Shown piece by piece: positions 20,184 through 24,287 of a stretch of DNA of 43,355 nt. The position numbers and the translations under genes were made by a program. Location of the stretch: assembly GCA_903870815.1 (NCBI GenBank), contig CAIQEI010000062.1, positions 1 through 43,355 of the forward strand, written 5' to 3'. The notes under the pieces were generated by a model, which saw only the letters and a list, made by a program, of their open reading frames with translations, was not told where the DNA came from and did not search any database. The stretch's first letter is position 1. Every line of letters begins with the position of its first letter. The stretch comes from an uncultured Verrucomicrobia subdivision 3 bacterium (GTDB lineage: Bacteria > Verrucomicrobiota > Verrucomicrobiia > Limisphaerales > UBA11358).

Positions 20184-20555
20184 GGTCGATCAGGTCTGGT
20201 GGTTGTTGGATTAAAAATGTGGTACCGGCGGATTCCTGCCGCCATCGCGTAGTCAACTTAACTGGCAGTGGGGTGGGCGACTTCCCCTATTTTGCCAAAG
20301 GCTGAACACCCTTTGCGGTCCGGGTGGCCGGGGTGAAGAAGGATTACCGCCAAGGTGCAAAGCCGCGAAGCCGCGGAGGATTATTTTCTCCCTCGCCCCT
20401 CGAAGGGGAGAGGGGTGCGTTCAATTTACCAGCATCAGCACAGCCGCCGCAACTTCCTTCCCACCCCTTGAATGAAAATTGAATTTTTTGGCGTCTTGCT
20501 GCGGGGCGCGTGCGCTGCGACTGATCCCGCTGCGCGGAACACAGTCGTACTCTAG
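20184..20555. other. Intergenic region of 372 bases with a hairpin
   Basis: This lies between the start of nifJ and the stop of the NHL protein gene, both on the minus strand. It should hold the nifJ promoter, but no convincing -35/-10 pair could be picked. It contains the hairpin annotated at 20390-20414. No coding region is evident. Confidence 0.4.
20390..20414. repeat. GC-rich hairpin, dispersed-repeat style
   Basis: CCCTCGCCCCT (20390-20400) and AGGGGAGAGGG (20404-20414) pair at 10 of 11 positions around a CGA loop. It sits downstream of the NHL-to-nifJ gap and has no T-run on either side. It therefore looks more like a dispersed palindromic repeat than a standard intrinsic terminator. 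Confidence 0.5.
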
Positions 20556-22115
20556 TTACGGCCAGAGACGGATGCGGTAGAAACGCTCACTGCCTGCACC
20601 CACCACATCGGCGGTGGCGGCGGCGTTGCTGGTGGCGGTTACGGGACTGCCGAGGTCCGTCCAGACGGGCGCGATGAGGTTGGTGGCGTATTGCAGTTGA
20701 TACATCTGGTTGGACACCGCGCCCCAGTTGAATAAAACGACGCTGTTGCTGGCCGTGAACGACGGCATGACCGGCGGTAATTGAAGATTCAATGTCGCCA
20801 CGCTGCTCGTCACACTGCCGGAGGCGTTGGTTATCACCACTTGATAGTTGCCAGTGTTTGCAAGGGTCGGCTCAATGAGTGGCAAAGCGGGACCTTGGGT
20901 ATTTAGAACTTTGCGAATGCGGCAGTTGAACCTGTCTGCGATGAATAAATTACCGTATGGATCCAAACGCACGCTGACTGGCTGGTTAAACTGAGTAAGC
21001 GTAGCAATGCCGCCATCACCATAAGGACCTTGCACGCCGTTACCCGCGATCGTTGTAATGATACCAAGCGTGTCCACTTTACGAATGCGATTGTTACCAG
21101 AATCAGGAATGAAAATGTTGCCATAACCATCCACCGCCACGTTGTAAATACCACTCAGACTGGCATTGGTGGCAGGTCCACCGTCGCCGGAAAAAGCACC
21201 CGAACCATTCCCGGCTACAGTTGTAACAATACCATTCGTGCCTACTTTACGGATAATGTTGTAGGCTACATCGGCAATCAATAGGTTGCCATTCGGATCT
21301 AAAACAACGCCGGAAGGAATTCCGAAACTTGCATTGGTTGCAGCACCGCCATCGCCGGAATAACCAAATGAGCCATTGCCCGCAAACGTCGTGATGATGC
21401 CATTTGTGTTCACTTTGCGGACACGATTGTTGCTAGAATCTGCAATATACAAATTGCCGGAAGTGTCCAAGGCCACACCGGTAGGTCCGTTTAAGCTGGC
21501 ATTTGTCGCCGCACCGCCATCGCCGGAATAATTTCCGAAAGAAGTTGATGTGCCATTGCCTGCCACCGTCGTAATGATGCCATTAGTATCGACTTTACGG
21601 ATGCGGGAAAAGGCAATGTCGGCAATGATAAGATTGCCGAACGAATCCACAATCACATCGTTAGGGGCTAAGCAGGCATTGGTGGCCGCGCCGCCGTCGC
21701 CAAGATAGTTTTGGTTGCTATTACCTGCCACCGTTGTAATAATTCCATTTGTGTCCACCTTACGGATACGACTGCCAGTGTTGTCAGCGATAAACAGGTT
21801 GCCGTTTGCATCTAACACCATGTCACGAGGTCTATTTAAAGTGGCATTTGTTGCCGGACCACCATCGCCGGAAAATCCTTGGGTGCCGTTACCCGCTACG
21901 GTACTGATTATGTTCGGCAGGTTGGTGCCGTTGAATTGCCATTGGTAAGTGAGTGGGCCGACGCCGGTTGCCATCACGCTGAAGGTGGCGTTGCCGCCCC
22001 AAATCACCGTCTGGCTGATTGGCTGACTGGTGATAACGGGTTGCGCGTGGAGTGAAGCGACCAGCGCCAATGAGCCCAAGCCCAAGCCCAAAAGTTTTCC
22101 CAAATATGATATCAT
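20556..22115 (-). CDS. Secreted NHL-repeat propeller protein with split Ig-like domain
   Basis: A 519-residue exported protein with a signal peptide at residues 1 to about 25 (GLGSLALVASLHAQ). Residues 27-67 look like the first half of an Ig-like domain (TSQPISQTVIWGGNATFSV, PLTYQWQFNGTNLPN). Six NHL repeats of about 56 residues follow, each with (I/V)(I/V)(S/T)T(V/F/I)AGN, GDGG.AT, a D..GN.(F/L/Y/I)I(A/P)D core and (I/V)RKV. Six repeats suit a six-bladed beta propeller. Then comes LANTGNYQVVITNASGSVTS, which reads as the second half of the Ig-like domain. Residues 446-519 form a small beta domain (YQLQYATNLIAPVWTDLGS, FYRIRLWP) common at the ends of secreted Verrucomicrobia proteins. A binding or surface role is likely; the ligand is unknown. 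Its base composition is AT-richer than its neighbours. Confidence 0.88.
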   Translation of the reverse strand: MISYLGKLLGLGLGSLALVASLHAQPVITSQPISQTVIWGGNATFSVMATGVGPLTYQWQFNGTNLPNIISTVAGNGTQGFSGDGGPATNATLNRPRDMVLDANGNLFIADNTGSRIRKVDTNGIITTVAGNSNQNYLGDGGAATNACLAPNDVIVDSFGNLIIADIAFSRIRKVDTNGIITTVAGNGTSTSFGNYSGDGGAATNASLNGPTGVALDTSGNLYIADSSNNRVRKVNTNGIITTFAGNGSFGYSGDGGAATNASFGIPSGVVLDPNGNLLIADVAYNIIRKVGTNGIVTTVAGNGSGAFSGDGGPATNASLSGIYNVAVDGYGNIFIPDSGNNRIRKVDTLGIITTIAGNGVQGPYGDGGIATLTQFNQPVSVRLDPYGNLFIADRFNCRIRKVLNTQGPALPLIEPTLANTGNYQVVITNASGSVTSSVATLNLQLPPVMPSFTASNSVVLFNWGAVSNQMYQLQYATNLIAPVWTDLGSPVTATSNAAATADVVGAGSERFYRIRLWP

Positions 22116-22272
22116 AATCGAATGAGAACTTTTTATATCACGTTAAGAGAATTGGTCAATTTCGTTTTCGAAGCTACCAGAAAGTGGTCAGCCGTCCCAC
22201 CGCCCGCATTGATGGGAAGCGTACCCGTCTCGCCTGTTGTTTTCGGCATCGCGCAGCTTCACCTGATAATAG

Positions 22273-22334
22273 CCCAGCCATTCATGGCTGGGACTCGATG
22301 CCCGCAATCGTCCGAAGTCCCGCAAGGGACGGAA
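22273..22334. repeat. REP-like palindrome pair
   Basis: CCCAGCCAT (22273-22281) and ATGGCTGGG (22284-22292) form a perfect 9-base stem with a 2-base loop. About 25 bases further on, GTCCC and GGGAC around GCAA form a second short stem inside TCCGAAGTCCCGCAAGGGA. Closely spaced GC-rich palindromes of this sort resemble REP elements mobilised by tyrosine transposases. No transposase gene is in the window. Confidence 0.45.
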
Positions 22335-22520
22335 GGTCCTTATTGTCATGGCGTCAAGCCGCCACGACGCGACAAATTTCCCGATCACACGAAAGTCGTG
22401 TCCTCTTTTGCGTCATTGTTTGTGTTGGAATTAGACACAGGCCAGGTGCATCCACGTGAAACTCCGCCGGCCTGAAAATTGAATTCGTAAGAAGACTTCA
22501 TTTTTTGACCCGAAACGAAT

Positions 22521-22730
22521 GCCCATGAGCTTGTTACCTTTGAAAATCTGTATCGACTCTTAAAAGATGCGGTATTCATCTTTGAGGATGCGGACCGAAT
22601 TAATGAAGATGCGGAACGAATCTTACATGATGAGCAGCTAATCTTCGAAGATTTGGACCGAATATTAAAAGATGTGGAGCTTATCTTCGACGATTGGGAC
22701 CTAATCTTACAGGATTGCTAGCTAATCATG
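22521..22730. repeat. Degenerate 21-base tandem repeat array, about ten units
   Basis: The triplet GAT recurs at exactly 21-base steps at 22566, 22587, 22608, 22629, 22650, 22671, 22692 and 22713, and two weaker units precede them. A typical unit is GAAGATGCGGAACGAATCTTA. Most units have imperfect dyad symmetry of the form AAGAT-N9-ATCTT. Read on the plus strand, the units are open from 22509 to a TAG at 22719-22721. They give a 7-residue repeat such as EDADRIN, EDAERIL, HDEQLIF, EDLDRIL, KDVELIF, DDWDLIL, with coiled-coil spacing. There is no ATG in that frame, only a CTG at 22548. The array may thus be a decayed coding repeat or a DNA-level binding array. Confidence 0.75.
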
Positions 22731-22886
22731 CAGTAATCCATGATAAGAGTATCGTATACTATGGCATGATGTATGCTGTTCCGTAAATACCCTTAGTGTG
22801 AGTGTGAAATATCCAAATTGAAAGGTAATAGTCAAACGCGCGAATGCTACGGGATACGTTGACAGTGGACGATTTGAATTGGCAGA

Positions 22887-22937
22887 GACGGTCCGTTGGC
22901 CGTCCGGGATCGCGTCCTGACCGTCGGCTCGAGCCGA
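22887..22937. repeat. Overlapping inverted repeats
   Basis: GACGGTC (22887-22893) and GACCGTC (22919-22925) form a 7-base stem. A perfect 14-base palindrome, TCGGCTCGAGCCGA (22924-22937), shares its left end with the second arm, so the two structures are mutually exclusive. They lie 130 bases before the 226-residue unknown gene. They could be a terminator-like or operator element. Confidence 0.4.
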
Positions 22938-23066
22938 TGGTCAAATGGCGAATTCAAAATGTATGTTTTGTAATTCTGAGTTCGGGATTAAAAAATCTCG
23001 TGAGCGTGGCCCCGCTGTTACTGCCAGTTAAAACCCGTCCGTTGTCAGGCTACAGAAAGTCACATT

Positions 23067-23747
23067 ATGGCAAATAAAATCAAATTCCTCCCCGTGAGGA
23101 AGGGAGACCAAATCGCCTTCGCCCAACAAATGCACGACGTAGTGTCGGCCACGGGCTTCGTCCCAACCACGATTGGGCTTACCGCCCAGGACGTAACCGA
23201 ACTGGGAACGCTCCTGACGACGGATCGAGGCAATCACACCGCCATCAACAACGCCATGGCCACGAAGAAGGCCAAGACGCAGGATATGAACGGCCCCGCC
23301 GGATCGCATCCGCAATTGATGGACAAGGTGCGCGTCATCGCCAATGCCGCCCGCGTCTCGAATGCCGCAGATGGGGTGCTGGCGACCATGGGCATCACCC
23401 GCCGGAGCCCCGGCGCCACGCCCAAGATCGTGCCGCTGACCGCGCCGGAATTTTCGCTGGAGGATGGCAAGCCGGGTTTTTTGCGCCTGCGCTTCCGCGA
23501 GGCGGGCAGCGCCAACCCGCGTGCCCGCGCCGCCAACACCATCGGCGTGCAAGTGGCCATTGTGGACGCCGCCAAGCCCGAGGTGAATGGCGAGGCCGAT
23601 ACCGTGCCCTTTGTGACGCTCACCCGCAGCCCGGCCAATCTGGATTCGAGCAAGCTGCCCGGCGAAGTGCGCATGTATGCGCGCTGGATCGGGTCGCGCG
23701 GCCAGGTGGGCGCCTGGTCCGTGGCGCTGGGCGCCACCGTGCCTTGA
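23067..23747 (+). CDS. Unknown protein, fibronectin-III-like C-terminal half
   Basis: A 226-residue protein that I do not recognise. It starts MANKIKFLPVRKGDQIAFAQQ, without a signal peptide or membrane segment. Residues 1 to about 115 look helical. Residues 120-226 look beta-rich, and the end GEVRMYARWIGSRGQVGAWS resembles the last strands of a fibronectin type III domain. It is followed 88 bases later by a smaller protein with similar beta-rich character, and the pair ends at a strong terminator, so they are probably one transcript. GC content and codon use match the core genes, unlike the AT-richer DNA upstream. That it is a real gene is well supported; the function is unknown. Confidence 0.7.
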   Translation: MANKIKFLPVRKGDQIAFAQQMHDVVSATGFVPTTIGLTAQDVTELGTLLTTDRGNHTAINNAMATKKAKTQDMNGPAGSHPQLMDKVRVIANAARVSNAADGVLATMGITRRSPGATPKIVPLTAPEFSLEDGKPGFLRLRFREAGSANPRARAANTIGVQVAIVDAAKPEVNGEADTVPFVTLTRSPANLDSSKLPGEVRMYARWIGSRGQVGAWSVALGATVP

Positions 23748-23835
23748 CCGTAACCGCTCGCATCCGGGCGGCGCGGGCTGTCCTCGGCGGGCTGTGGCGG
23801 GCAGGGGACTCCGCCCGGCCCGGATCGAACCGCTT

Positions 23836-24159
23836 ATGTACAAAGAACGCATCAAGGTTGGAAACGCCCGGCGCGGCAGTCGCGATTTGTCGCCGTCCGC
23901 GCCGGTTCTCACTCTCACGCTCACCGGTACCACGCTCACGTGGTCGCCGATGGATCCGACAGCAGCGGCTTGGGTCGTGAACATCTATGACTTGTCGGGC
24001 AACCTGCTGGACAATTCCGGCAGCATTGATGCCAGCCATGCCAGCGCGAACATCAATGATATGTGGGATCCGCCGCCGTTTCAGTTGTCCCTTCAAGCGC
24101 AAGGCAATGACGGCGTCAACTTCGGTCCTGAATCAAACAAGGTGAGCTGGTTGGGATGA
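23836..24159 (+). CDS. Small unknown protein, single beta-sandwich-like domain
   Basis: A 107-residue protein that starts MYKERIKVGNARRG. Its core (VLTLTLTGTTLTWSPMD, AAWVVNIYDLSGNLLDNSG, FQLSLQAQGNDG, GPESNKVSWLG) looks like one fibronectin-III-type domain. The frame is open back to 23677, but that part overlaps the previous gene and is arginine/proline-rich shadow sequence, so the ATG at 23836 is used. It has no signal peptide. It probably works with the 226-residue protein upstream; the two could be a secreted or structural pair exported by an unseen route. The terminator follows 70 bases downstream. Confidence 0.62.
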   Translation: MYKERIKVGNARRGSRDLSPSAPVLTLTLTGTTLTWSPMDPTAAAWVVNIYDLSGNLLDNSGSIDASHASANINDMWDPPPFQLSLQAQGNDGVNFGPESNKVSWLG

Positions 24160-24209
24160 AAACCATCATGGGCAGGCTGGACCTGACCGGCGCCAACGCT
24201 GCCTGAAAC

Positions 24210-24273
24210 AAAATTATAGGCGAAGCAAAAACGGGGGCCTGCCAGATAGGCGGCAGGCCCCCGTTATAATTTT
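24210..24273. terminator. Strong bidirectional intrinsic terminator
   Basis: AACGGGGGCCTGCC (24230-24243) and GGCAGGCCCCCGTT (24252-24265) form a perfect 14-base stem with an 8-base loop. Outside it, AAAATTATA (from about 24210) pairs with TATAATTTT (to 24273), giving A-rich and T-rich flanks on both strands. It sits between convergent genes ending at 24159 (+) and 24288 (-) and can serve both. Confidence 0.9.
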
Positions 24274-24287
24274 CGTCCGGATTATGC

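Follow-up and report, generated by a model that had tools for sequence, protein, structure and literature searches.

Tandem 21-base arrays upstream of a multicopy gene family in Verrucomicrobiota

Described repeat arrays and the array of the window

The plasmid parC sites of ParMRC systems are, as far as the consulted part of PMC9426499 goes, the described elements that work most like the array dealt with here, in the sense that they are short tandem repeats located upstream of a gene and have family-specific sequences. In that part of the paper, the length and sequence of the parC repeats vary between systems (11-, 10-, 17- and 20-bp repeats are cited), and each ParR adaptor studied bound only the site of its own family (PMC9426499). 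Unlike parC, the array described here, which lies in an uncultured Verrucomicrobia subdivision 3 bacterium, within a stretch of 43,355 nucleotides that was analysed as a whole and is called the window in what follows, belongs to a type with many copies per genome, whose units are not conserved between most related copies. Its neighbours in the window are genes for an NHL-repeat protein, for the family protein discussed below and for a CoA-ligase-like enzyme, together with a small ORF with no Pfam match; since neither a ParM nor a ParR gene was recognised next to it, the array is not filed as a member of ParMRC.

Iteron arrays of plasmid origins are made of direct repeats of about 20 bases, helix-phased and located beside a gene. 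Their likeness to the present array lies in these helix-phased repeats of similar length next to a gene, whereas the units of the array are not conserved between its copies; replication iterons were rejected as an identity because no Rep initiator family of Pfam or NCBIfam matched any of the family proteins scanned. REP and BIME elements are imperfect intergenic palindromes, sometimes clustered, with a sequence that is common across a genome. The window array shares the imperfect palindromes with them, but it has no second copy in its own genome, and a REP/BIME identity was rejected given the lack of dispersed copies sharing a sequence and a unit similarity that stays at background between most loci. 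A CRISPR array was likewise rejected, since the units abut head to tail without spacers; no cas gene appeared in the Pfam scan of the family gene, three neighbours and three more ORFs of the window. Bacterial satellites and minisatellites are tandem repeats in which many unit lengths are multiples of three, according to the consulted part of the survey by Subirana and Messeguer (2019, PMC6749651), where nothing like these arrays is described. The arrays differ from such satellites in having one fixed non-coding period, dyads in half of the cases and a tie to one gene family. In another source, the portion consulted gives tandem repeats only as counts, G+C content and effects on assembly (PMC4210602). 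The open-access full texts searched held no recognised description of such arrays. We know of no counterpart either.

The core of the array (positions 22542..22730, no strand assigned) consists of nine diverged units with the consensus GAAGATGTGGACCTAATCTTA, most of them with inverted arms (AAGAT ... ATCTT), and is flanked by a degenerate outermost unit (22521..22541, also without strand) that matches the consensus at 10 of 21 positions. A sequence-only reading of this DNA had described GAT anchors recurring at eight exact 21-base steps, which is confirmed for the units starting at 22563 to 22710; a further matching unit starts at 22542 and a weak one at 22521. The self-match at period 21 is 0.587 over 22521-22730, compared with a mean of 0.257 and a maximum of 0.365 in 2000 dinucleotide shuffles, every one of the 15 windows that score best at period 21 in the 43 kb overlaps the array, and TRF recovers it with periods of 21 and 42. 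Chance is excluded as the origin of the repeat. The array is also richer in A+T than its context (GC of 0.40 vs 0.58 for the whole window), and the gap that contains it (22116-23066), which had been called gene-free, indeed lists mechanical ORFs only. The partial dyad symmetry that had been attributed to the units proved real as well, in that the window array (L010) surpasses all 300 of its column-permuted versions (p 0.003, the floor of that test).

DNA and peptide searches of its own genome gave no significant second copy of the array beyond itself, and its DNA matched, in that genome and 58 relatives, only short fragments outside the window (E of 0.046 or worse). No relative of the peptide of its open heptad frame turned up in plasmids or in genome and viral contigs, and phages gave three matches with an E of 5 or worse, while the sequence search for array relatives gave nothing significant in the PDB (best E 0.34) and one weak match in PHROGs (E 0.011). 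Other features were seen in the same gap: a stretch of 94 bases (about 22238-22331) is 86% identical to DNA upstream of the paralogue on C132, a sub-threshold match to the Acido-Lenti-1 RNA lies at 22255-22292 on the minus strand (25.4 bits vs a gathering score of 37, E 0.0024), and two inverted repeats were noticed by eye at 22885-22945, between array and gene, the corresponding region of the paralogue L014 having inverted repeats of a different sequence.

The gene family downstream of the arrays

The main finding, which the sequence-only reading had missed, is that the window array goes with the gene located 336 bases downstream (23067..23747, plus strand, 226 aa), from which a leader (22731..23066, plus strand) separates it. 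Testing periods 12 to 39, the best period upstream of full-length family genes was 21 in 68 of 77 cases, and downstream of them in 5 of 79. That set was restricted to matches starting at or before profile position 12 and ending at or after 200; 103 matches with duplicates were reduced to 83 distinct genes, the window's included, six of which had fewer than 300 bases upstream and four downstream. The homologues were found by protein sequence and not by their arrays, and the association is therefore not circular; its counts are not independent trials, because many of the genes are related copies (L069, L098, L099 and L100, for example, are close). The first six copies (L010, L014, L017, L011, L016 and L013) each have a period-21 array upstream, with different units and with L017 as the weakest (0.50). 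A later set gave the same picture, with period 21 upstream of six out of seven genes (0.50 to 1.00) and downstream of one (at 0.42). It derived from 17 loci, six genes of which had already been used; from the 11 tested, L217 and L222 (both array-less) and L211 were set aside as partial or false matches and L224 because it lies too near a contig end, while L215, matched only from profile position 67, L219, matched from position 13, and L216, already met in the 843-kb scan described below, were kept.

Exceptions exist. Among the nine of 77 genes whose best period is not 21, it is 22 for L093 and L106, 23 for L116 and 16 for L067, L108 and L120, L067 and L108 carrying period 21 as well; the remaining three, L105, L114 and the second gene of L054, show none. 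No array was found upstream of these three full-length genes and of the full-length L210, nor at the partial family matches L052, L058, L061, L217 and L222. Partial or split genes were omitted from the association set both where an array is present (L021/L048, split by a TAG, and L049) and where it is absent (L052, L058, L061 and L040), and the weak and short matches L024, L025 and L038 were taken for false ones. Two further features were noticed on that side of the genes. L067, which also has a 21-base array, and L120 both carry a pure 8-base repeat, (CCAGCGCA)n, before the family gene. In addition, L088, L110, L113, L053, L055, L036 and L077 have, by eye, a similar short frame between array and gene (such as MKTIRLDAGFKLD ... 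PKKGK), which may be a candidate for a small partner peptide or an N-terminal extension.

Two paralogues of the window gene, 67% and 43% identical to it, are present in its own genome; elsewhere it has distant homologues. With a profile of 13 members, the family was detected in 43 of 384 genomes of the class, its own included, and 11 of those 43 hold at least seven scored copies. In a sample across the phylum it was found in seven of 387 genomes, five of them in the class (again including its own), one outside the class (G441) and one that looks false (G634); the one locus seen outside the phylum of the window, L033, belongs to Abditibacteriaceae and has an array too. The family was not found in viral contigs, and plasmids and phages gave none either at E 0.01 with two members as queries. 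Within the limits applied, the gene of the window matched nothing in Pfam, NCBIfam, PHROGs or PADLOC. For the family proteins scanned, Pfam gave matches below the cut-off only (a GlgE domain at E 0.0015, HORMA at E 0.023 and similar ones), PADLOC no defence-system match in five proteins, and a search of PDB sequences with profile A5 weak matches, the best being a ribosomal protein (E 0.0072).

Structure prediction gives some idea of the protein. Modelled with AlphaFold from eight sequences (mean pLDDT 73), the window protein is helical in its N-terminal part and forms, in its C-terminal part, a beta sandwich that resembles FN3. With that model as query, Foldseek ranks FN3 and cytokine-receptor domains first in the PDB, at probability 1.00 and with E values starting at 1.1e-3, none of them reaching 0.001; in a viral library the leading matches are mostly phage tail and FN3-like proteins, six of them at E 0.001 or better. 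The curated FN3 profile of Pfam matched none of ten family proteins (those of L014, L023, L026, L033, L036, L088, L096, L103 and L131 plus the window's), at limits of E 0.01 for one of them, E 1 for three and E 0.1 for six. The N-terminal part of L027, modelled with a higher confidence (pLDDT 88), is predicted to form an 18-residue helix, a 55-residue helix and a short third one; this helical domain alone had no meaningful match in the PDB (best E 2.6), and no DNA-binding domain was recognised in either model.

In three of 11 relatives, a pyruvate-ferredoxin oxidoreductase gene directly adjoins the CoA-ligase gene, at distances of 34, 261 and 310 bases, whereas in the window 4.1 kb (20184..24287) lie between these two genes, comprising the NHL-repeat gene (20556-22115, minus strand), the array, the family gene and a second small ORF (23836..24159, plus strand, 107 aa, no Pfam match); the other eight relatives have no such neighbour of the CoA-ligase gene in the flank examined (up to 1.5 kb). 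Given the adjacent flanks of those three relatives, the region looks either inserted in this species or lost from them. The 107-aa ORF may belong to a cassette in its own genome, since about 23848-24150 is 89% identical, as DNA, to the sequence after the paralogue on C132. A scan of the gap for sigma-70-type promoters gave three sites vs 1.1 expected, with none on the plus strand between array and gene, an absence that was counted against the array being a binding site.

Unit sequence, coding capacity and symmetry

Do these arrays have a sequence in common? The consensus units of random pairs show a similarity of 0.48 over rotations and strands, with a 95th percentile of 0.62. Among the 60 most similar gene pairs, which are those listed, the eight that are at least 91% identical (from three groups) still have related units (0.76 to 0.95), while L070 and L107, with 90% identity between their genes, are at the background of 0.48. 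Below 90%, four of 51 pairs exceed 0.62 (L065/L068, L088/L113, L095/L103 and L065/L095), which is close to chance, and the window unit reaches 0.62 with that of its closest paralogue. In several pairs, such as L030/L032 and L053/L055, homology begins 3' of the array. The gene of L072 and L073 is common to both at 97% together with a 59-base leader, and the homology ends at the 3' edge of the L073 array, beyond which L072 has other sequence across the 200 bases compared. What persists between arrays is their geometry, with a unit sequence that differs between loci. As the units are mostly unrelated, one site-specific protein cannot serve all arrays, unless it reads shape or each locus has a partner of its own.

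The latter leads to one of the alternatives considered, namely that each array serves as an address for the protein encoded downstream of it, forming with that protein a cognate pair of the centromere and adaptor kind with a fast-diverging specificity. An array accompanies most family genes, paralogues of one genome differ in theirs, the copy numbers of the family are high in the genomes counted above, and ParR and parC are a known case of repeat sites that diverge in sequence and have cognate proteins, at least from the part of PMC9426499 consulted. Nevertheless, the window genes scanned included no recognisable partner ATPase or ribbon-helix-helix gene, the window locus sits between metabolic genes and arrays without the gene exist, and we consider such a pairing improbable.

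The sequence-only reading had left two possibilities competing, a coiled-coil gene, decayed or unusually started, and an array of protein-binding sites; the first did not stand, and the second is the one tentatively favoured below. The open heptad frame on which the first was based does exist (22509..22721, plus strand), with 70 codons from a TGA (22506-22508) to a TAG (22719-22721) and no ATG, GTG or TTG. This is weak evidence of coding by itself, since a repeat that has no stop in one unit tends to be stop-free throughout. An open frame on the plus strand was found in 63 of 68 arrays vs 49 expected from column permutation, and together with the heptad pattern of the window this is what speaks for a gene, but the minus strand is enriched too (56 of 68 vs 46 expected by the same permutation) and TA is depleted in the arrays to 0.49 of expectation. 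A comparison of the differences between units, proposed earlier as a check, gave no synonymous excess: they are at expectation both in 109 open plus frames (1.03) and in 95 closed ones (1.04) of the 68 arrays, and in the 26 arrays with exactly one open plus frame the variability at codon positions 1, 2 and 3 is 0.346, 0.371 and 0.343. Unit lengths not divisible by three, which that reading had itself named as an argument against coding, occur in L106, whose 22-base units align with the 21-base ones of L102 (76% over about 120 bases), and six of the 68 arrays continue beyond a one-base indel. The array of the closest paralogue (L014/L019), with a unit of 20 bases as read by eye, has no open plus frame. 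The array peptides look unrelated between loci and many of the frames lack a start codon. The coding reading fails on the lack of a synonymous excess, the 22-base units and the one-base indels; with three tests against it (open frames, synonymous bias and codon position, unit length and indels), the array was rejected as a gene, the window frame was judged a non-gene, and a coiled-coil gene retains a very slight probability.

Evaluated against column permutation, 35 of 68 arrays show dyad symmetry at p<0.05 (Fisher combined 3e-35), and in those 35 the paired positions are 2 to 6 from a centre that was picked for best pairing. These 68 arrays, used also in the covariation and frame tests, are those with a period-21 self-match of at least 0.5; they have 11.3 units on average (6 to 20) and end 2 to 420 bases 5' of the start codon. 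They differ from the 68 of the association test, as they include L067 and L108 and omit L090 and L091 (0.48 and 0.49). In the 35 dyad arrays pooled, the arms covary within units (0.819 paired vs 0.777 with arms shuffled, Stouffer z 5.6), a value that is inflated because units within an array share descent and there are fewer events than cells; covariation reaches p<0.05 in only six of the 35 taken singly, and the window array shows none between its own arms (z -0.69). The other 33 arrays lack a significant dyad, and among them are some of the purest (L046, L027 and L121). In arrays without a gene, the symmetry is weaker (3 of 10, Fisher 4e-5).

Inverted arms with short loops, in an array upstream of a gene, might also be expected of a transcribed row of small RNA hairpins, whether as part of the 5' leader of the gene or as an RNA of its own, and the window array folds better than its shuffles (z -2.48 on the plus strand, -1.94 on the minus one). 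RNA selection, however, should tolerate G.U over A.C, and the arm mismatches of the 35 dyad arrays are strand-symmetric (96 G.T and 93 A.C), a balance that fits double-stranded DNA and not a selected RNA pairing. Hairpins do not need an exact period of 21 bases, and no Rfam family reached its gathering score in 22000-23200, the best match over the array being mir-232 (E 0.21). A function as RNA seems hardly probable for these reasons. The balance of mismatches has a second side, since it is also what mutation without selection would leave, and in that respect it was counted against a binding array.

Arrays without the gene and the nature of the locus

Period 21 is not confined to the family genes. 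In 843 kb, made up of the window and parts of three contigs chosen for their length and family-gene content, 12 stretches of period 21 were found, compared with at most two for any other period from 13 to 39. The family gene is beside only four of them; one of the other eight abuts a family-gene remnant of 31 residues. L145 has two arrays and no family gene within 1972 bases. The first matches, at 77% over 200 bases, the array found at L027 in a different genome of the same genus; the second looks by eye like the L130 array, which lies in the genome of L145 itself. The existence of such gene-less arrays implies that the array may be an element of its own. In a sample of 264 kb of the window's own genome, three masked contigs included, period 14 leads with seven stretches and period 21 has three, once those contigs are taken off, along with several weaker ones; two of the three turned out to be heptanucleotide repeats, and the third lies at a family gene. 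The former (L190 8666 and L200 1279) were discarded as period-21 arrays. They are tandem heptanucleotides of the (TGTTCGA)n kind (L190 8666-9071 and L200 1279-1490), the one in L200 adjoining, by eye, an apparent insertion-sequence transposase. Two long pure arrays of a near-identical unit lie 3 kb apart on G232:C4 (44072-44842 and 47665-48239) with no family gene near, and a small, apparently helical protein with no detectable relation to the family is encoded directly abutting an orphan array on G089:C16 (196112-196621, minus strand).

These gene-less arrays, one of them next to a gene remnant, belong to the evidence for the main rival explanation, in which the array is a functionless by-product of copying with a 21-base ruler, left where a mobile cassette or its machinery duplicates DNA in successive 21-base steps at its upstream edge and so turns whatever sequence was there into an array. 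Such a process would account for a fixed period with a free sequence, for arrays that change while their genes hardly do (L070/L107 and L072/L073 above) and for the 4.1-kb region that is missing between the same flanks in some relatives. On the other hand, plain duplication would not be expected to give dyad symmetry or covarying arms, strongly diverged arrays keep their register, and none of the window genes scanned was recognised as a transposase or recombinase. We regard it as somewhat unlikely, and more probable than the other rivals.

The reading that we favour, tentatively and at rather less than an even chance, is that palindromic sites for a protein are lined up in tandem at intervals of two helical turns and serve the gene downstream of them. 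It is preferred on account of the dyads in about half of the arrays, the covariation of their arms, the strand-symmetric mismatches and the predominance of 21 as the best period upstream of family genes. The array would be a non-coding DNA element with palindromic sites every 21 bases, that is, every two turns of B-DNA, and since the palindromes are repeated at this distance, half-sites of about five bases alternate their orientation roughly every half unit. A dimeric protein could bind the sites side by side along one face of the helix, and the resulting nucleoprotein array might then control, or mark, the gene located a few tens to hundreds of bases downstream. A bound protein is inferred from symmetry and phasing, and its identity and the regulation of the gene are inferred along with it; that no binding protein was identified and that the family protein has no recognisable DNA-binding domain both count against the proposal.

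In a wider sense, these loci could represent an undescribed type, although this is doubtful: a mobile or fast-duplicating cassette, whose family copies each have a hypervariable palindromic array built on a 21-base molecular ruler, with a fixed geometry that might be read as such or by locus-specific cognates, and acting as a private operator or as a centromere-like address. An element that conserves its geometry and not its sequence is missed by ordinary searches for homology, so that a feature recurring in a set of Verrucomicrobiota genomes may never have been recorded. It raises the testable question of what gauges a length of 21 bases and recognises symmetry whatever the sequence. For a multicopy protein family that is missing from the profile libraries searched, the arrays offer a first handle.
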